A program made the position numbers and the translations under genes. Source: a virus. From it: 64,000 nucleotides of DNA. The first letter of the stretch is position 1. Every line of letters begins with the position of its first letter. Shown one piece after another: positions 20,128 to 43,443 of this stretch. Under the pieces are notes generated by a model. It was given only the letters and a program-made list of their open reading frames with translations. It was not told where the DNA came from and made no database searches. The stretch is taken from positions 1 through 64,000 of the IMG/VR virus record IMGVR_UViG_3300042564_005059. One strand, given 5' to 3'.

Positions 20128-20129
20128 AC

Positions 20130-20182: not shown

Positions 20183-20290
20183 ATGGAAAATAAAGAACTT
20201 TTAGAAAAAATTATTGAACTGGTTAAATCAACACCAAATGATACATTATTAGGCACTGCTATACGAGCTGAAATTAATAAATTATCATAA
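20183..20290 (+). CDS. 35-aa microprotein
   Basis: Reads MENKELLEKIIELVKSTPND and continues to end NKLS: a small amphipathic-helix protein. It has a textbook host-type promoter and a terminator immediately after its stop, so it is a complete tiny transcription unit between the leader operon and the capsid gene. No family is recognised; small early phage proteins of this kind often modify host proteins. Confidence 0.55.
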   Translation: MENKELLEKIIELVKSTPNDTLLGTAIRAEINKLS

Positions 20291-20343: not shown

Positions 20344-22173
20344 TTATCTTAATTCATTGATGTTGAACGTTTGTACACCGTCAACTCTCAAGTGACCATA
20401 GAATCTGTTGTTAACCACTTTTTTAGCGTAACGAGTCATGATACCTTTCACTGGAGCGAAGTTGAATGGATTATACATTGTTGGAGTCAACTGTAATGGC
20501 ACATACGGAGCGTAGATGTATCCAGTATCCAATAATGATTTACCTTTGTGACCGATGATGATTGAGAATGCTGGTGCATATGGGTCACGATATACTTGAT
20601 ATCTACCACCTAATGAACCGATTCTTTCAATACCCATGTTGTATTGGTCTTGCTCAGGGTTAGCATCTGACACGTGGAAGTATTCTAAGTCGTCGAAGAT
20701 TGCAGAAATCTCTGAAGATACAACGATGAAGTTAGCACCACCTCTAAGTGTAGATTTATGGATTTGAGCTGAAATTTGGTTTAATTTAGTAATTAAAGTT
20801 TGGTTCCACTCTTTTTGAGTATATGGGCTCGCAGCAGAAGAAGCTTTTCTCCATCCATTGTAATCCCAACGTAATTGCCATGCAGCAGCTTTACGTAAAT
20901 CTCTAAGGATTTCACGGTCAATCTCAGCAGCAACTTGTTCTGATAACATTGCTGTTAATTCAGCTTCAGCATCGATGTTGTGGAATGCACTAACGTCTTG
21001 CGCTAACTCTGGAGACCATGTAGCTCTTAATTTTCTTTCTTCTACAGAAACAACAACTTCATCAAGTCTGAATGATACTTCACCCATTTCTGTTTCAAAC
21101 TCTAAACTAGCGTAAGAAGCATAAGCAGCAGTGAAAGCTGAGAATGATGAGAAAGTTGTAGCAGATGTACCAACATAACCGTCATAAGTAGCAGTACCAG
21201 CAGCAGCAGCACCAGTTCCAGCTGTTGTTCCAACTGGGTGTGATAAATCTAAATCTAACCAACAAACACCGTTACCGTCAGTTACTACGTTTGGACCAGT
21301 TACGATACCAACACCATATCTTTGAGTTACAAGTCTGAATGGAACATCTTGACCAGCAGTGATAACAGCGTTACCATCACGGTCTAAGAATGTAGCAGGT
21401 GCTACAACTTTTAATGAAGCTAAGAAAGATTCAGTATCCATTTGGTTACCATCTGGACCTGTTAATACTTCTCTAGTTGTACTAGGTGAAAATCCAGAAA
21501 TAGCAACGATTACATTTCTAACAGAACCGTCAGCAGCTGTAGGTAATACAGTACTAGCACCAGTTACAATTGAGAAAGTACCACCAGTAGTTAACGTATA
21601 AACTCTTACGTTTGGTGCGGTAATTGTGTTAATAGTAAGTGTACCTTTAGAGTTATCAAATAAACCATCGTTATAGAATAAATCGTATAAGTTTTTACCC
21701 ATCCATGGTGTTACAGCGCAACCATCAGTTGATTGAACACATGAAGGTAAACCATCGCGACCCATAGAAGTGTGAGCAGAAAAAGTTGGTCCATCTCCGT
21801 CATAATAATTACCTGGTTGACCTGAAGCGTTTACACGCTCAGAAGTTAACGGTACGAAGAAGAACAATTTACCAATTGGCATGTTCATAGCTTGTACAGA
21901 TACAACGTCATTAGCTAATAATTTAGAGAATACTCTACGAACGATTGGGAATACAACAGTTTCGAAAGAACCTGATGATGTAGCGTTAGTAGACTCAGTT
22001 AACAAGTTTGAAGCTTGGTTTTCATATAACTGAGCGATATTTTCTTTTACATGGCCTTTAAGTCCGTCTAAGAACCCTAAAGAATCCCATTTTTGTTGTG
22101 TTTCCAAACGGATAGCCTTCATGTGGTTTAATCCGATGTTACCAACTTGTCCTGAAGTCAATAAATGTGACAT
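20344..22173 (-). CDS. gp23: Major capsid protein (gp23-like)
   Basis: 609 aa, longer than T4 gp23 (521 aa). T4-like features include a helical N-terminal segment ending NLLTESTNATSSG, FPIVRRVFSKLLANDVVSVQ, RKLRATWSPELAQDVSAFHN, LSEQVAAEIDREILRDLRKA, and the C-terminal YAPYVPLQLTPTMYNPFNFA with GIMTRYAKKV. In T4, gp21 cleaves gp23 after an FLTE site at residue 65; here the equivalent L-T-E ends at Glu60. A long Gly/Ala/Thr-rich insert (about residues 170-330) accounts for the extra length and could form a surface domain. The terminator at 20294-20324 follows. Confidence 0.93.
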   Translation of the reverse strand: MSHLLTSGQVGNIGLNHMKAIRLETQQKWDSLGFLDGLKGHVKENIAQLYENQASNLLTESTNATSSGSFETVVFPIVRRVFSKLLANDVVSVQAMNMPIGKLFFFVPLTSERVNASGQPGNYYDGDGPTFSAHTSMGRDGLPSCVQSTDGCAVTPWMGKNLYDLFYNDGLFDNSKGTLTINTITAPNVRVYTLTTGGTFSIVTGASTVLPTAADGSVRNVIVAISGFSPSTTREVLTGPDGNQMDTESFLASLKVVAPATFLDRDGNAVITAGQDVPFRLVTQRYGVGIVTGPNVVTDGNGVCWLDLDLSHPVGTTAGTGAAAAGTATYDGYVGTSATTFSSFSAFTAAYASYASLEFETEMGEVSFRLDEVVVSVEERKLRATWSPELAQDVSAFHNIDAEAELTAMLSEQVAAEIDREILRDLRKAAAWQLRWDYNGWRKASSAASPYTQKEWNQTLITKLNQISAQIHKSTLRGGANFIVVSSEISAIFDDLEYFHVSDANPEQDQYNMGIERIGSLGGRYQVYRDPYAPAFSIIIGHKGKSLLDTGYIYAPYVPLQLTPTMYNPFNFAPVKGIMTRYAKKVVNNRFYGHLRVDGVQTFNINELR

Positions 22174-23565: not shown

Positions 23566-24291
23566 TTATTCTAATAAAAATTTATCTAAGTTATCGTTAA
23601 AATTTTCTTTTATAATTGGTTTTTTAACTTCTACGTTTTCAACATAAGGTCTCATTTCTTCAGCACTACGACCAATCCATGCATCTGGTGTTGATGGAGC
23701 TGTGACCACATCCCAACAAATTATTTCAAAATCATCTTGCACAATTTGTTCACCGTTTTTACCTTCTTTTAATGAACCTACACCTCTAGAAGAAACACCA
23801 ATTTTAATTCTGTTTCTTAATAAATTTGCTACTTCATCACCTTTGGTTGATACGATACCGTAGTTTATAAATCCTGGTGTCATTAAGATTTCCATCTTAC
23901 CCATAAGTGTATGTCCTTCCCACCAAGTTTCAATAATATTGTGTGAAATTCTATCGCCAGCGATAATAGAAGATTCTGGGTGGTCTAATTCACCTACAGC
24001 TCTACGCTCTTTTATGGCTTGTTGGTATAATTTGTCTTGTGATTTTAGAATAGCTTCTGGGTATACTCTACCGTTACGGTTTAGGATTCCGTATTTTTGA
24101 AGCACTACATAAACAATCAAAGGTTCAACAATGGCTAATTTATTTCCAGTATCTAATTTTTTTATTTCGTTTATGAAAGGTTGGTTTCTAGGTTCATCAG
24201 GTGATATATAACCAGCGTCATGCTCTATAAGGCCACCCCAACCAGTTTCACCTCTTTTTAATATCTTAAAATTTTTATAATTTATATCCAT
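23566..24291 (-). CDS. gp21: Prohead core protease (gp21-like)
   Basis: 241 aa. Serine protease of the T4 gp21/herpes assemblin clan. VGELDHPE places the catalytic His at about residue 104, and IGVSSRGVGSL the nucleophilic Ser at about 167. The N-terminal NRNGRVYPEAIL and C-terminal TAPSTPDAWIG blocks are also family-typical. T4 gp21 cuts after (L/I)-x-E; this specificity is why the LRE leaders and the capsid LTE site matter here. It sits between scaffold and core genes and has an ATATTTATAT motif upstream. Confidence 0.9.
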   Translation of the reverse strand: MDINYKNFKILKRGETGWGGLIEHDAGYISPDEPRNQPFINEIKKLDTGNKLAIVEPLIVYVVLQKYGILNRNGRVYPEAILKSQDKLYQQAIKERRAVGELDHPESSIIAGDRISHNIIETWWEGHTLMGKMEILMTPGFINYGIVSTKGDEVANLLRNRIKIGVSSRGVGSLKEGKNGEQIVQDDFEIICWDVVTAPSTPDAWIGRSAEEMRPYVENVEVKKPIIKENFNDNLDKFLLE

Positions 24292-25201: not shown

Positions 25202-25212
25202 TTTATTTTTAA

Positions 25213-25437
25213 TTAATTTTCGCTTATAATTGTTTTAATTTCTGAAAACATTTTTTCGTAATATTTTAATTTTGTTCTTTCCGTTTTTGAAGATAAAATA
25301 TCCTCAGTACCGTTTTTAATTGCGGTTCTCAATTTTTCAATAACACAGTCCCCAGATGGTTCTATATTACAAATTTCTTCTGTTAATTTTCTTAATTTTA
25401 AGATATTCTCACTTGGTGACATTTGAAACTCGCCCAT
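25213..25437 (-). CDS. Small helical protein
   Basis: 74 aa, charged helices with two cysteines (EICNIEPSGDCVIEKL). It lies between a core-like gene and a membrane protein in the same minus-strand run, with gaps of 11 bases on both sides. No family is recognised. Confidence 0.6.
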   Translation of the reverse strand: MGEFQMSPSENILKLRKLTEEICNIEPSGDCVIEKLRTAIKNGTEDILSSKTERTKLKYYEKMFSEIKTIISEN

Positions 25438-25448
25438 ACTTTTTATTT

Positions 25449-26231
25449 TTAGTTATCGTTATTTAAAGTTAATTTTAAACTAACTAATTTAGATATGTTT
25501 TTAGAAAAATCTTCATTTAACTCCACTTTGTCTCTTAATAATTTATCTTTAACACGTAACAATTTGTCTTTTGTTTCTAAATCCGATTCTGTTAATTTAT
25601 TATCAATTAAATCAATACATTCTCTAGATATTTTTGAATACACTTCTATTTTCTCTTCATCAGTAGATTCAATTAAAACAGTAATAACTTCTTTTTCAGT
25701 TTCAGTTATTGATTCACTATATTTCTCATTATATTTTTCAACAAGAATAGAACTTAACATACTATTTGGAACACCATAAGATTCTGTTACCACTTTTTCT
25801 TTATTTGCAAGAATGTAATCAACAATATCTGAAATAGCTTCAATTATAGTATCAATATTCTTAGGACTTCTTTCAGTAAAAATTAATTTAGAAATATCCT
25901 CATGTAACTTTTCAGTATCATTAGAAACCACAGAATTATCTTCAAATAAAATTGGTTTAGCTAACTTTAAATTAGCTTCTTGTAATTCTTTTTTTGAAAA
26001 TTGGTTTAATAAAGCTATATTTTCTTTAACAAATTCTGTAGCTTTTTCTCTATTAGATTCAATTTTATTTTCGATATTTTCGTAAACCAAAAATTGTGTT
26101 TTTAACGCTTTGTTTTCTCTAAGTGTTTTTATATATTTTTTGAAGAGTATCTTTTTAGATTCATCGTTTGAAACTATCCCTTCTGCAATTATTTCACTAA
26201 AAGCGTTTTTTATTTTTCCAAAATTTTGCAT
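25449..26231 (-). CDS. Prohead core/internal protein candidate with IAE leader
   Basis: 260 aa from the ATG at 26231; the upstream in-frame extension would run into the promoter-like motif and the portal stop. It starts MQNFGKIKNAFSEIIAEGIV: a helix ending I-A-E, the same kind of end as the T4 capsid-targeting sequence MKTYQEFIAE on internal proteins. The rest is a highly helical Glu/Lys-rich protein. Its place between portal and protease matches T4 small core genes (67/68), so an internal prohead core role is inferred. Confidence 0.6.
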   Translation of the reverse strand: MQNFGKIKNAFSEIIAEGIVSNDESKKILFKKYIKTLRENKALKTQFLVYENIENKIESNREKATEFVKENIALLNQFSKKELQEANLKLAKPILFEDNSVVSNDTEKLHEDISKLIFTERSPKNIDTIIEAISDIVDYILANKEKVVTESYGVPNSMLSSILVEKYNEKYSESITETEKEVITVLIESTDEEKIEVYSKISRECIDLIDNKLTESDLETKDKLLRVKDKLLRDKVELNEDFSKNISKLVSLKLTLNNDN

Positions 26232-26245
26232 AACTAATTTTTTAT

Positions 26246-26255
26246 TAATAAATAT
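26246..26255 (-). promoter_or_regulatory. Recurrent ATATTTATTA motif upstream of core gene
   Basis: Minus-strand ATATTTATTA ends 14 bases before the ATG at 26231. Confidence 0.5.
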
Positions 26256-26275
26256 GGTAGATTTAAGCAAAAAGC

Positions 26276-28345
26276 TTATTCATCTAACATTTTATTTATG
26301 TCATTTATCATATTATTAACATCTTCGTTAATCTTTACGTTTTTATCGTAAATTTTAACTCTAACATCATGTTCTTTGTCATTTTTTTTAACCGACTCTA
26401 CCAACACATCAACAAATCTTTTTTGATATTTTTCAGCCCTTACTTTTAATTGATTTTCTAATTTTATTTTTTGTTCACTTAAAAGTTTTTGTGTTTTATT
26501 TAATGATTCCGATAAAGCTTCTGGTGTTTCAGGTGTTGTACCAGCATCAGGTGTTGTCTCAGCTCCAGCCGCAGGTTCTTCTGCACCAGCTTCTGCTCCA
26601 AAATCTAAATCACCACCAGCTTCTGCGTCTTCACCACCAGCTTCTGCTCCAAAGTCTAAATCTTCACCACCTAGACCACCACCTCCGAAGCCGCCTCCAC
26701 CGCCGCCTCCAAAGCTACCACCTCCACCGCCGCCTTCAGCGCCAGCTTCATCACCACCTTGAGCACCTTTAAGAGCTGCTTGGTAATCACCATATATTTT
26801 ATCAACAGCGTCAAACATACCAGTATGTTTAATAACAGCTGATGTATTTTGTAATTCAGCGGATGCTGCTTTTTCCATTCGTTGTTCTAGTAAATCTTGT
26901 TTAATTTCATCGTCAGACCAACCCAATATATCTCTATGAGCTCTAGTCCATGACATAACACCAAATCCGTTACCAATATCAGATACAGAATCTTTAACTA
27001 GTGAAACTTTTACCTGCATATGTTCAACCTTAAGCATTTCAGCTTGTGTGGATGGGTTATTTAACGTAAGTGTAAAGTTATCTAAATCATCTTCAAAACC
27101 TAATAAGAATAAATGAATAATTGCTAATTTATTTAGTTCTTGTAACATAGATTGTTGAATACGGTTAATTGTTCTCGAAAAACGAATATCTTGTAAAGCA
27201 AGATTTTTACCCTCTCCAGTTGCTTCTTCGAAACCTAAAAATGGTTTCGGTACTCGCAACGCTGTAAATAAATTTCTCTGTAAGTATTCAATATCTGCAA
27301 TTTGGTCTAAGTTTGAAGCTCCAGGCAACGTATCAATTGGGTTAGGTGCGCTTTCATCCCTAACTGGGATAAAGAAATCTTGGTCATTAGAAAGCTGATT
27401 ATATCTTAAATCAATTTGACCAGTTTGAGGGTCAACAATTGGCATACGCTTAAATCTATCAGCAATAGCGTTTACATATTGTTCAACATCAGCGTCATCA
27501 ATGTTACCTACATATATTTTATAAACACGTCTTTCTGGTGCTCTAGTAACACGATATACAAGCATTGAATCTTCAGATAAGATAAGTTGTTTCCAAATAC
27601 GTCTAGCTTTCTCTAAAACACTGGTACCGTATGGTAAACGTCTGTCATCACCTAACAAACGAAAATGTGCAATTTGCCATGAATTAAATTCAACGTCTCG
27701 CCCTCTCCAGTAAAATTTAACTCTATCTCTATTTTCAGATTGGTCGTCAGAATATTCTCTACCGCTAACTAAATCATATAAACCAGCTTCTCTACGTTCT
27801 ATCTCGTAGTTAGGCATTTGTTTTGCGGAAATAATACCTTGTCTATCGTTGATATTCAAATAAACAAAATTATCACCGTATTTACAAGTATTTCTTGTCC
27901 ACATAGGTAATGTAGTATGTAAATCCAAACGGTTAAAGAATAAATCTTCAAGGATACCCTTAACACGCTTACTATCAGAATAAATGTTAAGAACTCTACC
28001 TCTGTCATTAACAGTAGTTGATTCTTCCATCATTACGTCTAAAGCGGCTGCGATTGTTGGGTAAAATTCCATGGCTTCAAAATCAGCGTAAGAACCAACA
28101 CGTGTAGTTTCGTAATTTATAGATTGTTGAAACAACCCATTTTCAACACGTTTCCAAGTACTTTGTAAATACTTGTTTTGTTGAGCTTGTAATTTTGCTG
28201 TTTCATATTCTTGTTTGCTAGTAGTTTTAAGCAATTCATTACCACCCAAATTAAATCTTTGTGTTGTTTGTTTTTGTGGTGGATTATAATCAGGGTTAAC
28301 AACTCTGTTTAATTTTTGAAATATTGTTAAATTATCTTTTGCCAT
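26276..28345 (-). CDS. gp20: Portal vertex protein (gp20-like)
   Basis: 689 aa, longer than T4 gp20 (524 aa). Portal hallmarks: EFYPTIAAALDVMMEESTT, MWTRNTCKYGDNFVYLNI, YRVTRAPERRVYKIYVGNID, FIPVRDESAPNPIDTLPGA and LRVPKPFLGFEEATG. The extra length is a C-terminal low-complexity section (about residues 535-600) of Gly runs and DFGAEAG-type acidic repeats, then a coiled-coil end. It forms the head entry ring through which DNA and any internal proteins pass. Confidence 0.92.
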   Translation of the reverse strand: MAKDNLTIFQKLNRVVNPDYNPPQKQTTQRFNLGGNELLKTTSKQEYETAKLQAQQNKYLQSTWKRVENGLFQQSINYETTRVGSYADFEAMEFYPTIAAALDVMMEESTTVNDRGRVLNIYSDSKRVKGILEDLFFNRLDLHTTLPMWTRNTCKYGDNFVYLNINDRQGIISAKQMPNYEIERREAGLYDLVSGREYSDDQSENRDRVKFYWRGRDVEFNSWQIAHFRLLGDDRRLPYGTSVLEKARRIWKQLILSEDSMLVYRVTRAPERRVYKIYVGNIDDADVEQYVNAIADRFKRMPIVDPQTGQIDLRYNQLSNDQDFFIPVRDESAPNPIDTLPGASNLDQIADIEYLQRNLFTALRVPKPFLGFEEATGEGKNLALQDIRFSRTINRIQQSMLQELNKLAIIHLFLLGFEDDLDNFTLTLNNPSTQAEMLKVEHMQVKVSLVKDSVSDIGNGFGVMSWTRAHRDILGWSDDEIKQDLLEQRMEKAASAELQNTSAVIKHTGMFDAVDKIYGDYQAALKGAQGGDEAGAEGGGGGGSFGGGGGGGFGGGGLGGEDLDFGAEAGGEDAEAGGDLDFGAEAGAEEPAAGAETTPDAGTTPETPEALSESLNKTQKLLSEQKIKLENQLKVRAEKYQKRFVDVLVESVKKNDKEHDVRVKIYDKNVKINEDVNNMINDINKMLDE
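26584..26662. repeat. In-frame direct repeat in portal gene
   Basis: Two 28-base copies (26584-26611 and 26635-26662) differing at one base, offset 51 bases (17 codons), encode the repeated DFGAEAG(G/A)E units; a GC-rich Gly-coding patch adjoins (about 26685-26765). Confidence 0.8.
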
Positions 28346-28394
28346 AGTATTTTTTATTTTAATATATTAAATTTATTGTAAAATTAAATAGTTA

Positions 28395-30170
28395 TTACCT
28401 CATATTTGCTGGTTTAGAAAATAACCACGAATATTGACCTCTAGGGTCTTGAACGTTTTTATAAGCTGGGTGGTTAGTGTTAACTACTTTTGTCACAACA
28501 CCAGTATTTTGGTCTCTTTCTGTTACGGTAGGTGAACTACTTGAAGTAGCTCCATTCAACCAACTATTTAAAATTGCTTTATTTTGTTTTTCTAGTCTTT
28601 CTAATTTTTTAAACGAATGTTCCATAACCCATAAACACATCGCTAACGACATAAGTAAATCATCATGATAACCTTCCATGTGGTCTGGTCTACCATTTTT
28701 ATAAATAAACGTTTTCATTTCAGAAACAAGTCTACTAGAACGAATTTTAACAGCGTTGGTTCTAATTTTATATTCTAAATTTGAAATCATAGGTAAACGA
28801 ACATTTGTGGCATGGAACCCTGGTATTTTATCCTTTTGATTATAACTAGTTAACTCTCTTTGTCTAGCTGATAATATTTTACCACTAGCATCATCATAAT
28901 GCAAACGCTTATAATTAAATTCCAACAATTTAAGAACAGTTGAAACACCCATACCTCCAGTTACATCGACAACAGTATATGCTTCATATAACTCACCGTA
29001 TTCTTCTGCTATTTGAGCTAATAAATCTGGTTGTATTTTACCTTGATATTCCATGACTTGTTCCATAGTAGTGAAATCAATTATAACTATCGTAGAACTA
29101 TCTTCACCATCACCTCTAGATACATCGACACCCATTATATATTGATGACCAGCTTGTGGTTCTTCCCAAATCCATATTTCATTTTCAAGACCCATAGTAA
29201 TCTTAGGTTCAATCACATTGTTTTTTTCATGAAAACCTATATATTCTTCACTAATTACATTACCCCCAGAACCTATAAATGAAACATCAAGCTCTTGAGC
29301 AATCATACGCGCATCATTGTTCATACCCATACACATTTGCTCGTACCATGTAGATGTAGGTTTCCACCCATCTTCAATCCTAGCTGTGTAAGACTCAAAT
29401 GAAAAATATAATTCTTTTTCTACATCGTCACCCTTAACCCACCTTAAATCTTTATTATAACGCAAATCCTCATACCATTTCATTTCAATGATATTAAAGT
29501 TGTTCTTTTTTGTTTTAGCTTGGTCGTAAGTTTTGAAATATAAAGAATCCATTCCGTTAGGTGTAGAAATAAGTGTTGCTCTACCCCCAGTACCTAATGC
29601 CGTAAGAGCGGCACCAAATACTTCGGCACCATTGTCAATATAGGCAGCCTCATCCATAATAAGAAACGTAGGTGTAAAACCACGCAAGGCATCTTTAGAT
29701 GTTGCAACTGCTTTAACACGACTACCATTAGGTAATCTAATTTCTTTTTTAGAATCAGTAAGGAAAATTGTTTTACCATCATTTTTAGGGTTTCCGTAGT
29801 ATTCGTGACCCCAAACCCATCTAGGTAATTGAGATAAAAAGTCTTTAATTTTAGCTAAAAACTCAAAAGCTAATTCTTGCTTATTAGCAATAATCAAAAC
29901 AGCTTCTGGGTTATCTTCATCAGCCCAACCAACTTTAATCGCCATATAAGCAGCGGTTGTAGTCGAAACCCCAGCTTGTCGAGGTTTAGTAACTAAATTA
30001 AATCTATGTTTTTCATATGCGCCTATAATTTCCTTTTGTCTAGGAAATAATTTAAAAGGAACAAACCCTTCTTGTGTTTTATCAAAAGTTTCTAAATAAT
30101 TCTCAATCGCATAAACTGGATTCATAAGACATTTAGAATACTCTTTAAATATTTCTTGTGCTGTTAGCAT
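28395..30170 (-). CDS. gp17: Terminase large subunit (gp17-like)
   Basis: 591 aa, close to T4 gp17 (610 aa). Packaging motor with N-terminal ATPase and C-terminal RNase H-like nuclease. Walker A-type loop TKPRQAGVSTTTAAY is at about residue 60, Walker B FLIMDEAAYID at about 168, coupling motif ATLISTPNG near 200, and nuclease motif IMGVDVSRGDGEDSSTIVII from about 343. The C-terminal MEGYHDDLLMSLAMCLWVM completes the nuclease site. An ATATTTATAA motif lies 16 bases upstream. Confidence 0.95.
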   Translation of the reverse strand: MLTAQEIFKEYSKCLMNPVYAIENYLETFDKTQEGFVPFKLFPRQKEIIGAYEKHRFNLVTKPRQAGVSTTTAAYMAIKVGWADEDNPEAVLIIANKQELAFEFLAKIKDFLSQLPRWVWGHEYYGNPKNDGKTIFLTDSKKEIRLPNGSRVKAVATSKDALRGFTPTFLIMDEAAYIDNGAEVFGAALTALGTGGRATLISTPNGMDSLYFKTYDQAKTKKNNFNIIEMKWYEDLRYNKDLRWVKGDDVEKELYFSFESYTARIEDGWKPTSTWYEQMCMGMNNDARMIAQELDVSFIGSGGNVISEEYIGFHEKNNVIEPKITMGLENEIWIWEEPQAGHQYIMGVDVSRGDGEDSSTIVIIDFTTMEQVMEYQGKIQPDLLAQIAEEYGELYEAYTVVDVTGGMGVSTVLKLLEFNYKRLHYDDASGKILSARQRELTSYNQKDKIPGFHATNVRLPMISNLEYKIRTNAVKIRSSRLVSEMKTFIYKNGRPDHMEGYHDDLLMSLAMCLWVMEHSFKKLERLEKQNKAILNSWLNGATSSSSPTVTERDQNTGVVTKVVNTNHPAYKNVQDPRGQYSWLFSKPANMR

Positions 30171-30186
30171 ATTTCTTCTTTTTATA

Positions 30187-30196
30187 TTATAAATAT
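30187..30196 (-). promoter_or_regulatory. Recurrent ATATTTATAA motif upstream of terminase gene
   Basis: Minus-strand ATATTTATAA ends 16 bases before the terminase ATG at 30170. Confidence 0.55.
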
Positions 30197-30231
30197 GCTG
30201 AAATCAAGTAAAATAAAGGTTTTAAAATAAA

Positions 30232-30252
30232 TAAGGGGCTAAAAGCCCCTTA
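30232..30252 (-). terminator. Intrinsic terminator after 30255 gene
   Basis: TAAGGGGCT/AGCCCCTTA hairpin with a 3-base loop and T-rich flank on the minus strand, between the 30255 gene and terminase. Confidence 0.75.
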
Positions 30253-30254
30253 TC

Positions 30255-31523
30255 TTAGAATAAATCATCACTATTGAAGACATCATCATCGTCCTCATCT
30301 AGTTCAATATCGTTACCAAACATTATTTCATCTAATGTGTAATAATCTTTATCTTCTTTAGAATTTAACTCATTCATAGCGTTATCAAATTCTTCTTCTT
30401 GTAGTTCTTGTTTAACACTACTCATAATTTCTTTTACCATTTTTTTACCCTTGTTTGTACCAGCTAAAATTTCTCTCATATTTTCATTGAATTCATTTAC
30501 TGGCATAGAAGCTAACTCCATGTACAATTGATGTTTTAAATTAAAATCGTCAGCATCAATACAATCTGTAAATCTATCCCACAATGCTGGTCCAATTCTC
30601 ATATCCCATGGTTCAGCTGATAAGAAATCTGCCTTATCAACAACATAATCACCTAACTTTTTATCTTTAGGTAAACCATGTGCTGATAACAATTCCATAA
30701 CACCTTTAACTAGTTCATGAATAAGTACTGGGAAAATCATAGCTTCAGCTTCAATAACAGCCTTAGGGTTATCAGCGGTTGGGAAGGTTACCTTAACAAC
30801 ACCACCACTGGTACCGTTATCCATCTTAGGTATAACATAATACATATAATCAGCCGCCGACATAACCTTTGAATAACGATTCAATAATCTTGGGTCCATG
30901 TTAGTTAATTCATCATCAACCATATGAAACATATGATTTGTTTTTTTCGCGGCACCTTGAATCATTGCGTTTAAAAATCTTCTTTTATAAATTTCACCTT
31001 TTGCGTTTACCATATCTTCATGGCTTTCAAATTGAAAATCATTAGATTTAGGTGTTGGGTGTTTTTTAGTACCCTCTAACGAAATCTTAGGTGACAAAGT
31101 AGCTCTTATTTCAACAATATCTTCTGGCATATCATACTCATCGCGAATCATTTTCTCAGCCAATTTTTCTAAGTTTTTTTTGTGTTTAGTTTCCAAAGCC
31201 ATTGTTTCGTGAACCATTGGCATCATTTGTGACATTAATTTAGTGTTATCAATTTCATCAACATCAAATGCGCGTTTATAACGGTTAACAACTTCACTGA
31301 AACGTTTACCCATTATCTTTTGTTCAAAGTTATTTTCATCACCCTCAGGTATAGCTGGGTGTTTACCTAACGAGTGTTTTCTTTCAGCTAATTCTTGTTC
31401 TAACTGTGGGTGCATTCTTTCTGTTATATTATCACCATAAACAACACCTTCATTTAATTTTGATTTGTTTCTGTTTAGTGATTTTAATAATGCTTGTTCA
31501 GCTATTTTTCTGTAATTGCTCAT
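30255..31523 (-). CDS. Conserved-looking head-region protein, unknown
   Basis: 422 aa, not recognised. Largely helical; a central segment IFPVLIHELVKGVMELLSAH contains HExxK, not the HExxH of zinc peptidases. The C-terminus is very acidic (DIELDEDDDDVF). The N-terminus, SNYRKIAEQALLKSLNRN up to L-N-E at residues 23-25, could be another protease-cut leader, but it is less similar to the LRE group. It lies in the head cluster next to terminase and ends at its own terminator. Confidence 0.6.
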   Translation of the reverse strand: MSNYRKIAEQALLKSLNRNKSKLNEGVVYGDNITERMHPQLEQELAERKHSLGKHPAIPEGDENNFEQKIMGKRFSEVVNRYKRAFDVDEIDNTKLMSQMMPMVHETMALETKHKKNLEKLAEKMIRDEYDMPEDIVEIRATLSPKISLEGTKKHPTPKSNDFQFESHEDMVNAKGEIYKRRFLNAMIQGAAKKTNHMFHMVDDELTNMDPRLLNRYSKVMSAADYMYYVIPKMDNGTSGGVVKVTFPTADNPKAVIEAEAMIFPVLIHELVKGVMELLSAHGLPKDKKLGDYVVDKADFLSAEPWDMRIGPALWDRFTDCIDADDFNLKHQLYMELASMPVNEFNENMREILAGTNKGKKMVKEIMSSVKQELQEEEFDNAMNELNSKEDKDYYTLDEIMFGNDIELDEDDDDVFNSDDLF

Positions 31524-31526
31524 ATA

Positions 31527-32471
31527 TTACTTTATGTCTTTTTTCTTTATAGTTTTTATTACTCTATTTTCCATAACTGGTTGCTGTTGTGGTTGTGAAC
31601 CAGTTTTAGCTAAATCTTTGATACCTTGGACTAACCCAGAAAGTCCATTTCTAGGAACTCCAATCATTTCAGCAAATGCAGCGATAACTTCTCTTTGTGC
31701 CAACTTGTTTGTTTTAATACTCTCTATGATAGTTGCTGGAATTCTTTTTTGAATAAGACCCATTAATTTTTTAGCTTTAATAGTCATTTCTTCATCACTT
31801 TCTTGGCCAGTCAATCCAACTTCACTTAACTCTTTTTTCTTAGGTGTACCAAACACTCTACCTTCAAAAAATTTTTTAAATTCATGTAACCCCATATATC
31901 TCTCATCTTCAAGCATAGTAGTAGCGGCCAATTCTGGAATTGTTTTAAATTTTTTAAATTTACCAGTTTTTTCGTTTACAATAAAATGTTTAAATTCACC
32001 TAAGTTAAGACTTTCAGGTTCAGTGCTTTTATTTTCACTTTCAGTTGTTAATTTTTCCATTTCAAGCATTGGTCTAGCTATTTTACTTTCAAATTCATCA
32101 ACATGGTAAATCATGTTACTTCCATCTTCATTTAATTCATCAAAACAATAAACACCCATGACTACATTTTTATCTGGTGTTATACCTCTTACCATTTGGT
32201 ATTTTTTATCACCAAGGTTAAACGGTTGAGCTATTTGTCCAGATTCAGCATCTTTTACATTTGATAAGTACTTTATCGTTGCTCTATCTTGAGGTTGAAT
32301 TACATTGTCAATTTCACCAACCAAAGCTGAAGATGCACTTTTAGCAGACGCTGCTTTATCAATAATAACAGTGTCGTCTTTTTTTAATTTATTAGTACCA
32401 GCCATTGTCTGAGCATCATTAGGTGATGCGACAATATATGTGGCTTCTTTTAATTTATTTTTTGTGTTCAT
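31527..32471 (-). CDS. Head-region protein, unknown
   Basis: 314 aa, not recognised. The start MNTKNKLKEATYIV has L-K-E at residues 7-9, followed by a mixed alpha/beta region and a C-terminal helical, basic end. It overlaps the upstream gene by 17 bases and is 4 bases from the next, so the run from the 820-aa gene to 30255 appears to be translationally linked. A structural or internal head role is inferred from position only. Confidence 0.55.
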   Translation of the reverse strand: MNTKNKLKEATYIVASPNDAQTMAGTNKLKKDDTVIIDKAASAKSASSALVGEIDNVIQPQDRATIKYLSNVKDAESGQIAQPFNLGDKKYQMVRGITPDKNVVMGVYCFDELNEDGSNMIYHVDEFESKIARPMLEMEKLTTESENKSTEPESLNLGEFKHFIVNEKTGKFKKFKTIPELAATTMLEDERYMGLHEFKKFFEGRVFGTPKKKELSEVGLTGQESDEEMTIKAKKLMGLIQKRIPATIIESIKTNKLAQREVIAAFAEMIGVPRNGLSGLVQGIKDLAKTGSQPQQQPVMENRVIKTIKKKDIK

Positions 32472-32868
32472 GTTTGTTTATATTATAATTCAATATTAGG
32501 TCTTTTTCGTATAATTTATCTTCAACTTCAGATAAATCTTCACCAAATTTAAAACAAATTCTTTTTTCTGGATACGTGTCATAATCGTCAATATTTTCCC
32601 AAGCCAAAGCAACTACACCATCAATAGCGTCCCAAACTGCAAATGTGTCACTATTTTGTATCACATCTAATTTTAGTTCAGATTCAAGTCTACCAACCTT
32701 TTTTATAAAAGAATCATGCGGTGGTTGTGGTCTTCCAGAAGCTGGGTATGTATCCCACTCATCACCATCTATATCTTCTGTAGTGTCAGAAAATATAAAT
32801 TCATAAAGGTAATCACCTTTATAATCTTTACCCACATAGTTCACATATATCAAATATAATTCTTCCAT
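32455..32868 (-). CDS. Hypothetical protein in head cluster
   Basis: 137 aa. A compact alpha/beta sequence (EELYLIYVNYVGKDYKGDYL, then DTFAVWDAIDGVVALAWENI) rich in Tyr, Trp and Asp. It shares its last base with the stop of the 820-aa gene upstream (TAATG coupling) and overlaps the downstream gene by 17 bases. No family is recognised. Confidence 0.6.
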   Translation of the reverse strand: MEELYLIYVNYVGKDYKGDYLYEFIFSDTTEDIDGDEWDTYPASGRPQPPHDSFIKKVGRLESELKLDVIQNSDTFAVWDAIDGVVALAWENIDDYDTYPEKRICFKFGEDLSEVEDKLYEKDLILNYNINKHEHKK

Positions 32869-35330
32869 TATTCTTCAGCTTTTGGGTCTGGTTGTGATTC
32901 TCTTTCTGGTAAGAAAGGTTTATTACGTCTAGACGGTTGAATCATAGGTGATTCTTTGGGTTTTGTTTTAGGTTCCGCTGGTAATACTAACGGTTCTTCA
33001 TAGTTAAAAGTTTCGTGTAATCTCATCTTAATTTCATTTTTATCAAATATACTAAAATTTTCTGATATATTCAACCCTTCACTAGTACTTTTTTTACCCC
33101 ACTTCTCACCCTTGCCTCTAGTACCACAAGATGATGGTGTTGGGCGACACGCTGGGTATTTTCTTTTCTCACCATCTTGTCTACCACATGGTTTACATTT
33201 TTTTCTACCAGTATCTGGGTTTTTTCTACATGTGTTGCAATCAACCCAACCACTAGAACCTTCACCACCTTTTCTAGAAAACCATCCATGAAGACCTTGT
33301 GATTTTTCTTTTGAGAAATCAGTTTTTTTAGCTTCATCTAATGAGTCTGTTTTAAATTGAATCAAATCTTCTTTATTTAAAATTTTAACTTCTATACTAT
33401 CTAACCCTAAACTTAAAGCTTTTTCCAATCTATGGGTTCCATCCAACATAGCAAATATTTTTCCATTTTCATTTTTTACAACAATAATTGGATATGATAA
33501 ATCTGCTTTATTTACCCTATCTTTTGTCTTTGTAGGGTCTTCTTGTCTACCACTAAAATCATAATTTATTTTTTTAGGGTCTATATTTTTTACTGGTAAA
33601 TTTTTGGCTAATTCAATAACATCACTAACTTTAAATTTTATTTTAAAATCACTACCATCTTCAAATTTTTCATTTGTGTCCCAAACACCAGCTATCTTAT
33701 CTATAGATTCATAAATTTTTAATTCACTTAAATCTTCTTTTTTATTATTAGGCTCAACAACATTAAATGAATTTATATTCTTTGGGTTACCGTATTCTGT
33801 ATTTATTTCTGGTTTTGTATATCCAAATTTACCATACACACCATTTGGTTTAAATAAATTATCATTGTAATTAAACAATTTTGGTGGTATTGTGTTACTA
33901 GTTCTAACATTCTTAGAAACACCTTGTGGTGTGTAAGCAAAATCAATAATAACACCATTAATCATTGGTACTATATGGTCTTCCCATTCACTATCAGAAA
34001 TATTATTTTCTTTTCTATATTGTTCACTCATTGGCATATAAACATAATCTGCTTTTATACCATTTTTCTTTGCCCAATTCAACATATCTCTAGTAAAAAA
34101 TGAACAATTACCTAAACTATTTTGAATATCATATTCTGTGTTTTTCATATATTGGTTTACAATACCACTGATTTTAGATATGTTTTCATTTACTGGTTTA
34201 GACTTGGTTTCTTCACCTTTTTGTCTTTTCTTTCTAGCATCACAATGAGCCTTTTGGCTAAAACCCCTAGGGTTATTACAGTCAATAGTTTTTTTGTAAT
34301 CATTAGACCATTTCTCTTCAATAACTTCATTTAAAGCATATCCAGAGTTTATTGACCACATACCATTTTTTGGTGGTGTTGTTGGTGGAATATAATCACT
34401 ATCTGGTCCTAACCTGCGAGCTAAACCCTTTTTAACCAAATCTTCCCACATGTTAAAACCATCATACTTACCTGTTTCTTTGTTATACAAGAAAATAAAA
34501 TCAGATGTGAATTTATCAAAATTATTTAAATTGTTTTTCAACCATTCATTAAAATTTTGATAAAATTTTCTCATTATACCCTTACCCTTATATTCTGGAT
34601 ATATTTCAACTTTTTGTATTTGTAAATTTTGATTTCCAGTTTCTTTGTCTTTATAAATAAAAGCAACAAATTTACCAACATTATTATTACCATCTAAAAT
34701 TTCAATAATAAATTGATTAGCACCTTCAGTACCCTTTGATAGTTTTAAAGTAAAGTTATCAAATCTTGCAATATTTTTTAGTTTATTCATAAAATCGATA
34801 ACATCTTTACCATAAATAAATCTACTTAAAGTATTTAAACTTCTAGTTAAAAATGTATCTACCTCTGCTTTTGGTTCTTGTGAAGTAATAACTTCATTAA
34901 CAGATTCGTTTGATTTGTTACCCCAATTTGCAGCACCAGCCTTACGACACTTAACAAGCGCGCCAGATGCATAAGCCGATGGCCATACATCATATCTAGC
35001 TCTAACCTTGTGATAACAAGCGTCTCTTTTAGCTTTCTTCTCACCTTCTTCAATTACTTCATCAAAATCAGTTTTTATAATTTCAACTTGTAATTCACCA
35101 GAACCCTTGATAACTCTATGAAAAGTGTCTTTAGGTATAAAGTATTCTTCACCAACGGTTAACTTTGTTGGTAATTCGTTGTCAAATTGTACCATCCAAT
35201 CGTTTTCATTTAGTGGTAAAACAACTCTATCTTCATGGTCTCTATGCCACACCAATTCACTCTCAGGTATATTATCTGAAAATGTGCGTCTTATAATATT
35301 TCCATTATTTGTTTCTGTATACGGTTTCAT
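32868..35330 (-). CDS. Multidomain protein, candidate virion polyprotein (cupin, GNAT-like, cysteine-protease-like, ParB-like, DUF5872-like)
   Basis: 820 aa. Modules in order: cupin-like (about 27-85, with WHRDHED and FIPKDTFHRV); a short KVRARYDVWPSAYASGALVK motif (109-128) known from T4-like cyanophage proteins; GNAT-like (about 215-300, VEIYPEYKGKGIMRKFY); SQKAHCDARKK motif (358-368); a papain/transglutaminase-like domain with plausible triad Cys409, His452, Asp463; a ParB-like domain (about 575-655, LDGTHRLEKALSLG); and a Cys-rich DUF5872-like domain (679-740, CKPCGRQ, YPACRPT). Modules are separated by L/I/V-x-E steps ending at Glu146, 335, 382, 541, 666, 757 and 773, which the gp21-like protease could cut. 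Domain calls are by motif; processing is inference. Confidence 0.65.
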   Translation of the reverse strand: MKPYTETNNGNIIRRTFSDNIPESELVWHRDHEDRVVLPLNENDWMVQFDNELPTKLTVGEEYFIPKDTFHRVIKGSGELQVEIIKTDFDEVIEEGEKKAKRDACYHKVRARYDVWPSAYASGALVKCRKAGAANWGNKSNESVNEVITSQEPKAEVDTFLTRSLNTLSRFIYGKDVIDFMNKLKNIARFDNFTLKLSKGTEGANQFIIEILDGNNNVGKFVAFIYKDKETGNQNLQIQKVEIYPEYKGKGIMRKFYQNFNEWLKNNLNNFDKFTSDFIFLYNKETGKYDGFNMWEDLVKKGLARRLGPDSDYIPPTTPPKNGMWSINSGYALNEVIEEKWSNDYKKTIDCNNPRGFSQKAHCDARKKRQKGEETKSKPVNENISKISGIVNQYMKNTEYDIQNSLGNCSFFTRDMLNWAKKNGIKADYVYMPMSEQYRKENNISDSEWEDHIVPMINGVIIDFAYTPQGVSKNVRTSNTIPPKLFNYNDNLFKPNGVYGKFGYTKPEINTEYGNPKNINSFNVVEPNNKKEDLSELKIYESIDKIAGVWDTNEKFEDGSDFKIKFKVSDVIELAKNLPVKNIDPKKINYDFSGRQEDPTKTKDRVNKADLSYPIIVVKNENGKIFAMLDGTHRLEKALSLGLDSIEVKILNKEDLIQFKTDSLDEAKKTDFSKEKSQGLHGWFSRKGGEGSSGWVDCNTCRKNPDTGRKKCKPCGRQDGEKRKYPACRPTPSSCGTRGKGEKWGKKSTSEGLNISENFSIFDKNEIKMRLHETFNYEEPLVLPAEPKTKPKESPMIQPSRRNKPFLPERESQPDPKAEE

Positions 35331-35796: not shown

Positions 35797-37356
35797 TTAC
35801 CACCAAGTACCACCACCAGATAAACCTAATAATTTAGCGTATCTTGGTAATCTACATGCCCAATACCCTGGTTTTGTTTTATCGTTTTTAGCTTTACAGT
35901 TGTGTCTGTCAGCAAACGCTTTTCTTGCTTTAGGGTCCTTCAACTTAACAGCTAAATTACCACCACCAGCTTTAGCACCAAAAGAAACTTTTTTAACTTT
36001 ACCAGTCTTAGGGTTTCTAACATAAACAAAGAATTTTTTAGAACCACCTCTTTTAGGTTTACCTAACTCTACTTTTTTACCTTGATACTCCGCTTCATTA
36101 ATTGTTTCAATTTCAAAGTCTTCAAAAATAGTGTTTAATTTAACTTTACCTTCATTAACCATAACAAAACCATTGTCATAATCTTCAACTATAAATTGGT
36201 CGTTTTCGTTTAAACTAATCAACCCTTTTTCATTTAAAGTTTTAACTTCTTTTAACAATGATTGGAATTTTTCTGAACCATATCTAAAAATAGATTCACC
36301 CAATGCTATTTCATTTGTTAAATGATAAGCCAAGTCTTTTGATACTTCAATAGGTTTATTTAATTTCATAGGTTGAGTCCATTTTGAATAATCCATTTCT
36401 TCACCAGAATCTTCATGTCTGTCATTTAAAGCACCTTCAGCAAAATGATAAACTTCTTCAACATCATCAGCCGATGTGGCAATATGGTCTAACGCCCATC
36501 CATGACCATCTGATAATAAAGCATCTAATGAATTTTTATCCATATTTAATAATTCAGATGCAGCGTGAACAAGCGTTTTAAGGTTCTGCCAAAACATGTA
36601 ATTATTTGATTCACCTATGTTTTCATTAACACGCACGCAATTTGGAACTTCTTTTCCGTTTTTTTCTTTCATACCAACTTGTTTATATCCTTTCCAACAT
36701 GAGTTCATTTCATCTAATATATCATTTGAACCTGGTTGAAACATGTTATTCTTTTTTGGGTTATCTAAAAATAAATCTTCTCTTTCGTATATTTTAAAAC
36801 TATCTTCTTGCACTGGTTCTTCATCAGATGAAAAATCAAATTCATCAGCATTACCACCCCCGTTATCATCTCCACCGAAAGAATCATCTCCACCATCGGC
36901 ATTATCTTGATTGTTGTTATCAAAATCTTGTGTTTCATCTTCTCCAGACTTGTTTATTTTTTTAATAATATCGTTTTTATCCTCCTCATCCATTTGAGCA
37001 GTATGTGTTGCTGAAATAACTGAATTAATCGCAAATTTTTCTAATTCAAAATCTGGTTGACCATTATCCTTAGCAAATTGTCTAAGTGATTGTCCTAACT
37101 TACCACTCAATTGCTCAATAAATTTTTTAGGGTCTGTTTCTTCATCAGCATCAACACCAGCATCAAAAGGTTCTTTTTCAAATGACATATCACTTGATGG
37201 GTCTTCTGCTGGTGCACCACCCATAGGGTCTTCTGCTGGCATTTCTTCACCACCAAAATCGCCAAAACCAGCGTCATTAGCTGGTTCTGTCATAGGTTCA
37301 GCTGGAGCAGGCGCAGGAACGGCAGGAGCCGCTGGCGCTGGATTGTCCAACTTCAA
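35797..37356 (-). CDS. Modular head-region protein, lacks a good start (likely -1 frameshift product)
   Basis: 519 aa if begun at the TTG at 37356; no well-placed ATG exists near the 5' end. Order: Pro/Ala-rich acidic N-terminus, helical segment, Asp/Gly-rich linker, a NSCWKGYKQVGMKEKNGKEV block with VPNC, helical middle, and a C-terminal domain (about 415-519: KKVELGKPKRGGSKKFFVY, GGGTWW) familiar from T4-like cyanophages. The same frame extends upstream through TEGKKYKLKLDN to a T10 run, where it would join the preceding gene by a -1 shift. Possible L/I/V-x-E cut steps occur (VNE, INE). Confidence 0.62.
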   Translation of the reverse strand: MKLDNPAPAAPAVPAPAPAEPMTEPANDAGFGDFGGEEMPAEDPMGGAPAEDPSSDMSFEKEPFDAGVDADEETDPKKFIEQLSGKLGQSLRQFAKDNGQPDFELEKFAINSVISATHTAQMDEEDKNDIIKKINKSGEDETQDFDNNNQDNADGGDDSFGGDDNGGGNADEFDFSSDEEPVQEDSFKIYEREDLFLDNPKKNNMFQPGSNDILDEMNSCWKGYKQVGMKEKNGKEVPNCVRVNENIGESNNYMFWQNLKTLVHAASELLNMDKNSLDALLSDGHGWALDHIATSADDVEEVYHFAEGALNDRHEDSGEEMDYSKWTQPMKLNKPIEVSKDLAYHLTNEIALGESIFRYGSEKFQSLLKEVKTLNEKGLISLNENDQFIVEDYDNGFVMVNEGKVKLNTIFEDFEIETINEAEYQGKKVELGKPKRGGSKKFFVYVRNPKTGKVKKVSFGAKAGGGNLAVKLKDPKARKAFADRHNCKAKNDKTKPGYWACRLPRYAKLLGLSGGGTWW

Positions 37357-38519: not shown

Positions 38520-38765
38520 TTATGGTAAATTAGGCGAACCTAAATATACGTTCTGATTATCGCCTAATAAAAAACAACCAGAACCACCACTTATGGTTCT
38601 TATTGTTATAGTAATTGACGATGACGCCCCAACACTAACAGAAATACCATTAATTGTTGCAGTACAACCAGCTGAACCACCATATATTGTAGTATACGTG
38701 TGAGCTGTTGTATTTGCAGATAATGCGGGTACTATTATACTATATACATCGTTATTTCTTGGCAT
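38520..38765 (-). CDS. Small beta-rich protein, paralogue of 40340 gene
   Basis: 81 aa. Strand-rich with TTIYGGSAGCTATINGISVS and TISGGSGCFLLGD. The same template occurs in the 40340-40702 protein (DGGPTGCNININGVNVQ and TVSGGAGCYLYGD). A virion decoration or fibre-associated role is inferred from its place after fibre-like genes and before the head cluster. Confidence 0.55.
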   Translation of the reverse strand: MPRNNDVYSIIVPALSANTTAHTYTTIYGGSAGCTATINGISVSVGASSSITITIRTISGGSGCFLLGDNQNVYLGSPNLP

Positions 38766-40339: not shown

Positions 40340-40702
40340 TTAAATATTATTTAAATCTGTTAAAATTGTTGTAAGACATGTCTCTGATTCAAAAGTACCC
40401 TCATCTGAAGAAACTCTATTTTTAAACGCGTCTACCATTATTTGAATTGGGTTTGAGATAAAAGGTGTGTTAATACCACCACTAACGTCAGGGTAATCAC
40501 CATATAAATAACATCCAGCACCGCCACTAACGGTTCTAACTAAAATTTCAATAGTAGAACCACTACCCATTTGTACATTAACGCCGTTTATGTTTATATT
40601 ACAACCCGTTGGCCCTCCATCAACACTAGTATAGACTAAATCATATAAACCAGCGTATTGTGCTGGTATTATAAAATTACTTATATCGTTATTTATTGCC
40701 AT
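40340..40702 (-). CDS. Small beta-rich protein, paralogue of 38520 gene
   Basis: 120 aa. It shares the GGPTGCNININGV/VSGGAGCYLYGD template with the 81-aa gene on the other side of the fibre gene and adds a 40-residue helical C-terminus (PIQIMVDAFKNRVSSDEGTF). An ATATTTATAA motif precedes it by 11 bases. Confidence 0.55.
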   Translation of the reverse strand: MAINNDISNFIIPAQYAGLYDLVYTSVDGGPTGCNININGVNVQMGSGSTIEILVRTVSGGAGCYLYGDYPDVSGGINTPFISNPIQIMVDAFKNRVSSDEGTFESETCLTTILTDLNNI

Positions 40703-41288: not shown

Positions 41289-42530
41289 CTAGTTGGACAA
41301 AGGTGCTTTAATTGTTGGATGTGATTGATAATTTTCTACTTGAAAATTAACCTCTCCATTTATAGCTTCATCAAATCCTTTATGTTCTAAGTTTGCTAAA
41401 AATATTGGGTTCATAACTAATTTTGGCAACGGAAAGGGTTCTCTTGTTCGCTTAGGTAATTTAGAAATGTATTCCATTCTAGGCTCATGCTTTAAAGCAT
41501 CCATACCTGATTGTTGTAAATGTTCTAATATTTCCTCTTCAGTAAATTCTCTACCAATCTGTTCTTTAGCTTGTTCGATATGATTTGAATATAAATGAAC
41601 ATCACCTAAATTTCCAATCAACTGGTCAGGAACCATGTTAACTTCTTTTGCAATTATTTCCAATAACAATCCATAAGAAGCAATGTTGAATGGTAAACCT
41701 AAGAATGTATCTACTGAACGTTGATTCCACATTAAAGAGATTGCTCGTCTTGGAATGGTATTATCCATATCAACGGTTTCTCTAATTATATTTTGACCTA
41801 TACCACCAACATCTTCGTAACCAGCTAATTTCATTCTTTCCTTCTCACTTAACTCTCTTGTATAAACTTGAAATCCATAATGACAAGGTGGAAGCACCAT
41901 TTGGTCCAGTTCCGAACAATTCCAAGCATTTACCATTAATCGTCTTGAGTCTGGATTTGCTTTAAGGTCGTTGATTAGGTTTGTGATTTGGTCTATTGGA
42001 TGTTCTTTACTCAATCCAGCTCCCAATACCATTCCGTGTTTATATCCTTCCCAACTTCTCCATTGTTTACCGTAAATTGGACCTAATTCACCCCACTTCT
42101 TAGCAAACTCATCATCTGTTTTGATTTTGTTGATGAATTCTTCTTGTGTTAATAATTCACTTAAATCCAATTTGACACTATCCTTCCAATGGTCTGGTAT
42201 GTCTGTTTCAACAACATTTTTATTATGGTTTTTGTAATTTTCAGTACAATTATTCAAATAAAATTTGTAGCAGTCCCCATCCCAAATGTGACAATTATTA
42301 TCAACCAAATACTTAATATTTGTATCACCACGAAGGAACCAAAGAAGTTCTGTTACGATTGTTTTGAATGGCATCTTCTTTGTAGTCAAGAGTGGAAACC
42401 CATCTTTCATATTGTGACGTATCTGTCTTCCGAATACTGAGATTGTTCCACCATTTCTTGTTTCTTTCTTAACACCATTCTCTAAAATATCTTTTAAGAG
42501 GTTTTGATAATCTAAATCTAATTTATTCAT
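41289..42530 (-). CDS. thyA: Thymidylate synthase
   Basis: 413 aa from the ATG at 42530, where the family-typical MNKLDLDYQNLLKDILENG begins. Makes dTMP from dUMP with methylene-tetrahydrofolate. Motifs: FPLLTTKKMPFKTIVTELLW, GPIYGKQWRSW, SRRLMVNAWN, catalytic Cys in LPPCHYGFQ, RRAISLMWNQRSVDTFLGLP and LGDVHLYSNH. It is longer than the usual 264-316 aa owing to two inserts (around residues 80-140 and after the catalytic Cys). The start overlaps the GIY-YIG endonuclease stop by 8 bases. Confidence 0.95.
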   Translation of the reverse strand: MNKLDLDYQNLLKDILENGVKKETRNGGTISVFGRQIRHNMKDGFPLLTTKKMPFKTIVTELLWFLRGDTNIKYLVDNNCHIWDGDCYKFYLNNCTENYKNHNKNVVETDIPDHWKDSVKLDLSELLTQEEFINKIKTDDEFAKKWGELGPIYGKQWRSWEGYKHGMVLGAGLSKEHPIDQITNLINDLKANPDSRRLMVNAWNCSELDQMVLPPCHYGFQVYTRELSEKERMKLAGYEDVGGIGQNIIRETVDMDNTIPRRAISLMWNQRSVDTFLGLPFNIASYGLLLEIIAKEVNMVPDQLIGNLGDVHLYSNHIEQAKEQIGREFTEEEILEHLQQSGMDALKHEPRMEYISKLPKRTREPFPLPKLVMNPIFLANLEHKGFDEAINGEVNFQVENYQSHPTIKAPLSN

Positions 42531-43380: not shown

Positions 43381-43393
43381 AATTGTTGTTTTA

Positions 43394-43403
43394 TTATAAA
43401 TAT
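43394..43403 (-). promoter_or_regulatory. Recurrent ATATTTATAA motif upstream of homing endonuclease 2
   Basis: Minus-strand ATATTTATAA ends 13 bases before the ATG at 43380. Confidence 0.5.
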
Positions 43404-43443
43404 CTACTGTTTTACTTTTCTACTCAGTTATTATCTAATTTTT

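Follow-up and report, generated by a model that had tools for sequence, protein, structure and literature searches.

Modular make-up of an 820-residue protein

The window examined in this work is a stretch of 64,000 nucleotides (positions 1 to 64,000 of the IMG/VR virus record IMGVR_UViG_3300042564_005059), which forms part of a 95,427-base virus record. On its minus strand, within a block of genes arranged as a T4-type head operon, lies an open reading frame (ORF) which extends from an ATG to a stop codon and encodes a protein of 820 amino acids (aa). In the original prediction, this protein was described as a 92-kDa chain of enzyme modules whose boundaries coincide with six (L/I)-x-E steps of the kind cut by gp21 of T4, and it was regarded as a candidate virion polyprotein. 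The ORF is real, but its computed mass is 94.3 kDa and its strand had been left unstated; the residues which were singled out (viz. C409, H452, D463, E146, E335, E382, E541, E666 and E757) are all found where they had been placed. The ORF and its modules are listed below, with the sign ↓ marking a putative cut after Glu.

32868..35330, minus strand: whole ORF of the 820-aa candidate head-cargo polyprotein, ATG to stop; full-length relatives in L001 (100%) and L002 (87%)
35055..35330, minus strand: cupin-like module, residues 1-92; stand-alone homologues in L091, L094, L103 and L104
34893..35054, minus strand: DACYHKV basic/Cys motif, residues 93-146, with steps SNE142 / VNE146 at its end (PHROG 727/38880)
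34326..34892, minus strand: GNAT acetyltransferase-like module, residues 147-335, with LNE335 as its closing step (Pfam, Foldseek)
34185..34325, minus strand: NNPRGFSQKAHC motif module, residues 336-382, with I-E-E↓KWS inside and VNE382 at its end
33708..34184, minus strand: Cys-His-Asp hydrolase-like module, residues 383-541 (C409, H452, D463), ending at IYE541
33333..33707, minus strand: ParB/sulfiredoxin-fold module, residues 542-666, with LDE666 at its end
33060..33332, minus strand: DUF5872-like LHGWF...YPACRPTP module, residues 667-757, ending at ISE757; 72 viral loci
32871..33059, minus strand: C-terminal module, residues 758-820, with the helix NEIKMRLHE↓TF followed by a proline-rich tail

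The description of these modules as enzymes does not extend to all of them. The GNAT and the ParB/sulfiredoxin (Srx) folds are supported, as the isolated GNAT module gives a Pfam match with E = 0.003 and, from a low-confidence model, a Foldseek probability of 1.00 to aminoglycoside acetyltransferases (AAC(3)/GNAT), and the ParB/Srx module gives PHROG ParB-like matches and a Foldseek probability of 1.00 to Srx, ParB and Noc. The latter fold is the only one identified from a model of the Cys and ParB modules (mean predicted local distance difference test score (pLDDT) 67.9), and a profile of these two modules showed no match to PDB sequences. In the Cys-His-Asp module, C409, H452 and D463 are invariant in 6 homologues, one of which is 30% identical; however, its fold matches in Foldseek, viz. 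the Pasteurella toxin thiol-protease domain (0.23) and NAT (0.28), are all non-significant, and due to this "hydrolase-like" is the furthest label that can be applied to it. The cupin and DUF5872 labels are obtained only via homologues: for the former by a weak Cupin_2 match (Pfam, E = 0.013) of the stand-alone homologue in L103, and for the latter by a match of a shorter homologue to PF19197 at 1.8e-5, just under the cut-off. The DACYHKV, NNPKGFSQ and C-terminal parts, in contrast, are short basic, Cys-rich or linker-like segments and no demonstrable enzymes. Two motifs of the protein, viz. DACYHKV... and NNPKGFSQKAHC, are of a cyanophage type, and the first of these is present in 366 phage records. 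The helix of the C-terminal module comprises residues 764-774 in a low-confidence model. No metallopeptidase domain was matched in the domain search which identified the terminase large subunit (TerL) as PF03237.

An intein-like insertion is seen inside the DACYHKV motif in L017 (689-3259, residues ~130-407), L056 (2033-4498) and L053 (2-913). It begins CVPEDTSKALTRDGW and in L017 it ends TITGN before a Ser. Because no Pfam match to an intein was obtained for L017 and L056, the term "intein-like" refers to the sequence pattern only.

Exchange of modules at hydrophobic-x-Glu steps

The most telling feature of this protein, which was absent from the original prediction, is the exchange of its modules at the steps. 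A search of viral contigs gave 19 loci, in which the closest relatives keep both ends of the protein (cupin/DACYHKV at the N-terminus, LHGWF and the C-terminal part at the other end) and differ in the middle: the complete set is present in L001 and L002, GNAT, NNPRGF and Cys modules in L003, NNPRGF and Cys modules in L005 and L006 (from which GNAT is absent as a block), another segment in L010, L012 and L013, an unrelated stretch with a ParB-like motif in L009, and nothing in L008. In L004, GNAT is present with the cupin-like module only. The DNA of L008 matches window 24874-33337 with 99.2% identity, lacks 33338-34905, which is the whole GNAT-to-ParB block, and is then again ~90% identical. 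The nucleotide breakpoints against ten relatives lie at residues 142-146, 335-337, 541-543 and 664-666, i.e. at or within ~4 residues of steps 146, 335, 541 and 666. The first of them is seen in L006, L008-L010, L012-L014 and L016, with its left edge at SNE142, four residues before VNE146, and the last in nine relatives. For steps 382 and 757, the support comes from modules that are found apart in other loci. Modules are also found as separate genes or in another order (L018, L025, L027, L029, L048, L053 and L091-L104), including a separate Cys+ParB gene in L029/L038 and a separate gene for the ParB module, starting MKYLKTYKLFE↓SIDK, in L018/L026. The suggestion that homologous phages be checked for modules encoded as separate genes is thus answered in the affirmative, as the modules occur separately or in other combinations. 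From the gain, loss and exchange of modules at the joints in relatives, it is probable that the protein set packed by the phage can change and that it is cut apart within the head.

The coincidence of six boundaries with such steps, when picked by eye, proves nothing, because the protein contains 23 [LIVMF]-x-E steps, roughly as many as its composition predicts; 10% of its positions lie within 2 residues, and 19% within 4 residues, of some step of this kind. The counting of steps was therefore rejected as evidence when taken alone, and it is the tests on homologues that carry the claim. The boundaries at 146, 335, 541 and 666 stand due to the breakpoints at or next to them. A strict L/I-x-E step is present at 335, 541, 666 and 757; however, a V-x-E step is found at 146 and 382, and the motif is here better described as hydrophobic-x-E.

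For these tests, the upstream contexts of the modules were aligned after removal of redundancy (<40% identity over 20 residues). A [LIVMF]-x-E step is present exactly before the LHGWF module in 18 of 28 non-redundant contexts and within 1 residue in 22 of 28; the ParB module is preceded by [LIV]-x-E in all five contexts (IYE↓S, LNE↓S, VKE↓S, LFE↓S and LQE↓S); and a hydrophobic-x-E step directly precedes KWSxKYKxSIDC of the NNPRGF module in 12/12, and the GNAT module in 2/2, non-redundant contexts. The background at other upstream offsets for these four modules is ~2-3%. Before the DACYHKV motif, for the anchor that was chosen, the step is seen in 9 of 19 contexts and the background is higher (7%), and before the KVxLGKP module most contexts read [LIM]xE↓AEY. 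Across the joints, the P1 Glu and the P3 hydrophobic residue are held while P2 and all of the sequence upstream vary, which suggests selection on the motif.

Head protease, candidate targeting peptides and cyanophage relatives

The genes of the head operon that lie downstream of the 820-aa gene, and a neighbouring gene of similar style, are as follows.

28395..30170, minus strand: TerL (PF03237, phrog_2), in the same direction; the synteny anchor
26276..28345, minus strand: portal protein Gp20 (PF07230, E=5.8e-74)
23566..24291, minus strand: S77 prohead core protease of the gp21 type, the candidate enzyme for the cuts (PF03420, E=6.5e-25)
20344..22173, minus strand: major capsid protein Gp23 (PF07068, E=4e-71), by its sequence with a likely cleavage step of its own, LLTE60↓S
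35797..37356, minus strand: neighbouring 519-aa protein with YMFWQNLKT and KVELGKP modules and steps VNE and INE

Where the capsid protein of the window has LLTE60↓S, T4 gp23 has FLTE65↓A. Next to the capsid gene, window 18720-19373 encodes a DNA/RNA non-specific endonuclease (PF01223, 6e-29) whose N-terminus resembles a signal peptide, and near the head genes, on the plus strand, 46353-48854 encodes an 833-aa ClpA/B-type AAA+ ATPase (phrog_4871). A pair of small paralogous proteins, 45% identical, is encoded at 38520-38765 and 40340-40702 beside the gene for a tail-like protein. At 41289-43809, a thymidylate synthase gene (41289-42563) is accompanied by an ORF for a homing endonuclease (42523-43380) and by a second piece of the gene (43444-43809) which resembles its N-terminal part, an arrangement which suggests an intron or a split gene.

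T4 gp21 cuts after L/I-x-E, and in T4 the cargo is targeted by capsid targeting sequence (CTS) peptides of ~10 residues (PMC9026906). The link to cutting of the gp21 type, which had been drawn in the original prediction, is supported by the S77 protease gene of this genome and by the manner in which the steps track the presence of S77 across phages. An S77 protease was found in 17 of 18 module-bearing records and in 0 of 14 control genomes. The KGRKSY module of cyanophage relatives is preceded by Glu, in the form GGLNE↓KGRKSY, in 10 of 12 S77-bearing T4-like phages. In the 11 phages without detectable S77 (T7-like cyanophages, pelagiphages, LMM01 and C75C1), GLTA, GLNA, GMTA, GLTK or GMTK is found there and Glu in none (0/11; Fisher p = 7e-5 for Glu against S77 presence, a statistic that ignores ancestry). 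The DACYHKV genes of the roseophages CRP-902 and CRP-7, which have no S77, are likewise without the step.

A further recurrent element, the short peptide (M)Kxx[IL]KKLLRE and near matches to it, ends in a hydrophobic-x-Glu motif and forms the N-terminus of nine ORFs of this genome and the C-terminus of one more; no internal copy was found in 29,350 residues. ORFs carrying it lie at window 16753-17091, 18198-18719, 19366-20256, 50511-51719 (C-terminal), 55900-56223 and 61608-63815, and at G000 63791-69304. The exact DNA patterns for this peptide recur in five related records and are absent from a reversed control. It is a candidate capsid-targeting peptide of unassigned cargo proteins; a Pfam scan of the tagged genes for known effectors gave only weak DUF matches. 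A version of this tag inclusive of its Met, MK(D/N)LI(T/A/K)QKLHE, is found inside fusions in L050, L053, L061, L069 and L073, where it precedes a YMFF module, and a close variant forms the N-terminus of two separate L048 genes which carry that YMFF module. The presence of Met-containing tags inside fusions suggests that the polyproteins arose by fusion of tagged cargo genes. The C-terminal module of the 820-aa protein, with IKMRLHE↓T (IKNILRE↓S and IKNMLRE↓T in homologues), resembles the N-terminal tag.

The original prediction held an organisation of this kind to be unusual; however, it is not unique to this phage, as it is shared by the cyanophage T4-GC119 proteins (viz. S-SM2 SSM2_109 and S-SCSM1_29), which occupy the slot between gp16 and gp17. 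By tblastn and synteny, these proteins share with the 820-aa protein the DACYHKV module and a place upstream of TerL. They also have DUF5872-type modules and hydrophobic-x-Glu joints, which in S-SCSM1_29 read VSE↓, MTE↓, FNE↓ and GGLNE↓, whereas they lack the GNAT, Cys and ParB modules and end in a KGRKSY...RAWNC module in place of the different C-terminal module of the 820-aa protein. SSM2_109, which is of a similar build, lies directly upstream of gp17. S-SCSM1_29, whose place is just upstream of TerL, carries the label "virion protein", which presumably reflects the identification by mass spectrometry (MS) of 45 virion proteins of S-SCSM1 from CsCl-purified phage (PMC9602691). In S-CREM2, MS detected gp136 and gp137, which lie between the small and the large terminase, with 8 and 4 unique peptides, respectively (PMC10665884). 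S-CREM2 gp137 has two segments in common with SSM2_109, and MQTFSMFFSE↓D is the start of gp136. T4-type capsid targeting peptides are also found at the start of related modules and of their neighbours (S-CREM1_179 and S-SCSM1_30); the start of S-CREM1_179, MKTYNDFITE↓ followed by the module, is close to MKTYQEFIAE, the CTS of T4 IPIII. In S-RIM14 (L120 1273-1743), a T4-CTS-like KKKTYEEFVSE occurs in the middle of a protein, which may be another sign of fused capsid-targeted genes.

Interpretation and significance

Based on the above observations, we consider it probable that the 820-aa protein is a prohead-core cargo polyprotein of a T4-like phage, which would be cut by the gp21-like S77 protease into swappable modules. 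The polyprotein would be made late and would co-assemble into the prohead core, perhaps entering it by means of the amphipathic helix (I/L)Kxx(L)xE of its C-terminal module, a helix similar to the tags at the N-termini of other genes here. During head maturation, the S77 protease would cut after the Glu of the steps between the modules, and the freed parts (cupin-like/DACYHKV, GNAT, Cys-hydrolase-like, ParB/Srx-fold and basic Cys-rich segments) would stay with the DNA and be ejected into the host, where those of enzyme type may be active. For cuts at all joints, fragments of about 16.9, 21.9, 5.5, 18.4, 14.2, 10.0 and 7.5 kDa are computed. As each joint carries its own cut step, modules could be added, lost or swapped, and among relatives such changes are frequent.

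In our best reading, the protein would work like the delivery of T4 internal proteins combined with the architecture of polyvalent proteins. With the T4 internal proteins (Alt and IPI-III) it would share a cargo place in the prohead core, a short hydrophobic-x-Glu step, an S77 protease and variable cargo behind a conserved signal (PMC9026906). However, the T4 cargo consists of separate genes with terminal propeptides only, whereas here many modules are present per chain with a step at every joint; further, as an N-terminal targeting peptide is absent, the protein is not classed as a T4 internal protein. As in polyvalent proteins, in the part of the account of Iyer et al. (2017, PMC5512222) that is drawn upon here, several effector-like domains, ParB and GNAT included, are joined in one late-gene protein with strong mosaicism, and the GNAT-like and ParB/Srx-fold modules in the head operon give at least two effector-like domains near late genes. 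Those proteins, however, are reported to be intact or to be processed by a metallopeptidase of their own, and that part of the account does not describe prohead-protease steps at joints (PMC5512222). The ejection proteins of giant phages (phiKZ, SPN3US) are cut by their prohead proteases, and many of the proteins inside the head are trimmed after Glu by a divergent relative of gp21 (PMC9026906). This is mainly removal of propeptides and not the release of several modules. The motif of the giant-phage prohead protease also differs from the hydrophobic-x-Glu step. No description of protease steps between the cargo modules of phage head polyproteins was found in the open-access papers searched.

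A number of points weigh against a cargo polyprotein cut by S77. Hydrophobic-x-E is a weak motif, several steps fall inside predicted domains (VIE573, FNE262), and V, M and F also occur at P3, of which V and M are outside the strict T4 motif. The P2 residues are mostly encoded by NAN codons (D, N, Y, H, E, K), and due to this the step variants are close at the DNA level. The N-terminus of the protein, MKPYTETNNG, is no recognisable CTS, and no hydrophobic-x-E is present within its first 20 residues (MKPYTETNNGNIIRRTFSDN); a role of the C-terminal helix in targeting is conjecture. The full-length structure model (15-row alignment) has a mean pLDDT of 41.6 and is therefore unable to show whether the steps are exposed. 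The comparison of phages with and without S77 is confounded by ancestry, because those with S77 are all T4-like; it uses the KGRKSY module, which is absent from the 820-aa protein; and in the remaining 2 of the 12 phages with S77 the sequence there is SQK, with LKE or MNE slightly earlier, directly before DWQK. Lastly, only 4 peptides of S-CREM2 gp137 were detected.

These points have to be considered together with what other explanations can account for. If the whole chain were packaged and ejected uncut, like the N4 virion RNA polymerase, and worked as a tethered set of domains, it would have precedents in the polyvalent proteins of phages, whose domains include GNAT, peptidase and ParB in up to 50 domain combinations and which are reported in the part of the polyvalent-protein account referred to above, together with the unprocessed packaging of the N4 enzyme (PMC5512222). 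This is nevertheless unlikely, as it leaves unexplained both the hydrophobic-x-Glu before unrelated modules and the absence of Glu in phages without S77. The steps could alternatively be scars of fusion or recombination between formerly separate genes with leaders ending in LxE, where the joint, cut or not, is kept by descent or recombination homology. The internal copies of the N-terminal tag inclusive of Met, the breakpoints at almost the same nucleotide in many relatives and the NAN codons at P2 all agree with this; however, the constancy of P1 and P3 while P2 and the upstream sequence vary suggests selection on the motif, and as the leaders look like cleavable targeting peptides, such scars would still be cut. 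We therefore regard this explanation, too, as decidedly unlikely.

It is improbable that the protein is a late cytoplasmic multi-domain protein merely located in the head operon. GNAT or Srx-fold domains could act in the cell, and no computed result specifically favours this; same-slot relatives, in contrast, are reported in CsCl-purified virions, and the T4-type targeting peptides of related modules and their neighbours (S-CREM1_179 and S-SCSM1_30) also speak against it. Cutting of the chain by its own Cys-His-Asp module would fit the invariance of the three residues in homologues, but the fold is not significantly protease-like. This possibility was rejected as highly improbable, as L008-L010, L012-L014 and L016, which are without the module, keep the steps.

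Some 370-550 phage records carry these modules, and they are mostly from cyanophages. We lean slightly towards the broader view of a general cargo system in the T4-like phages of fresh and marine waters. Targeting peptides and head-protease steps would be its standard connectors, by which nearly any small effector could be plugged into a single polyprotein delivered by the head and be released in the capsid as a protein of its own. Nearly identical phages would exchange sets of effectors at these connectors. Proteins are known to be injected by phages along with the DNA, but for the most part each of them is targeted by itself. If the reading of the 820-aa protein as cargo cut in the head is correct, then a protease-cut polyprotein with interchangeable modules would explain the rapid variation of injected proteins in T4-like phages of uncultured hosts, and a hydrophobic-x-Glu joint together with a targeting helix would provide a sequence rule by which head cargo could be recognised among the many thousands of "hypothetical proteins", those in the above phage records included.

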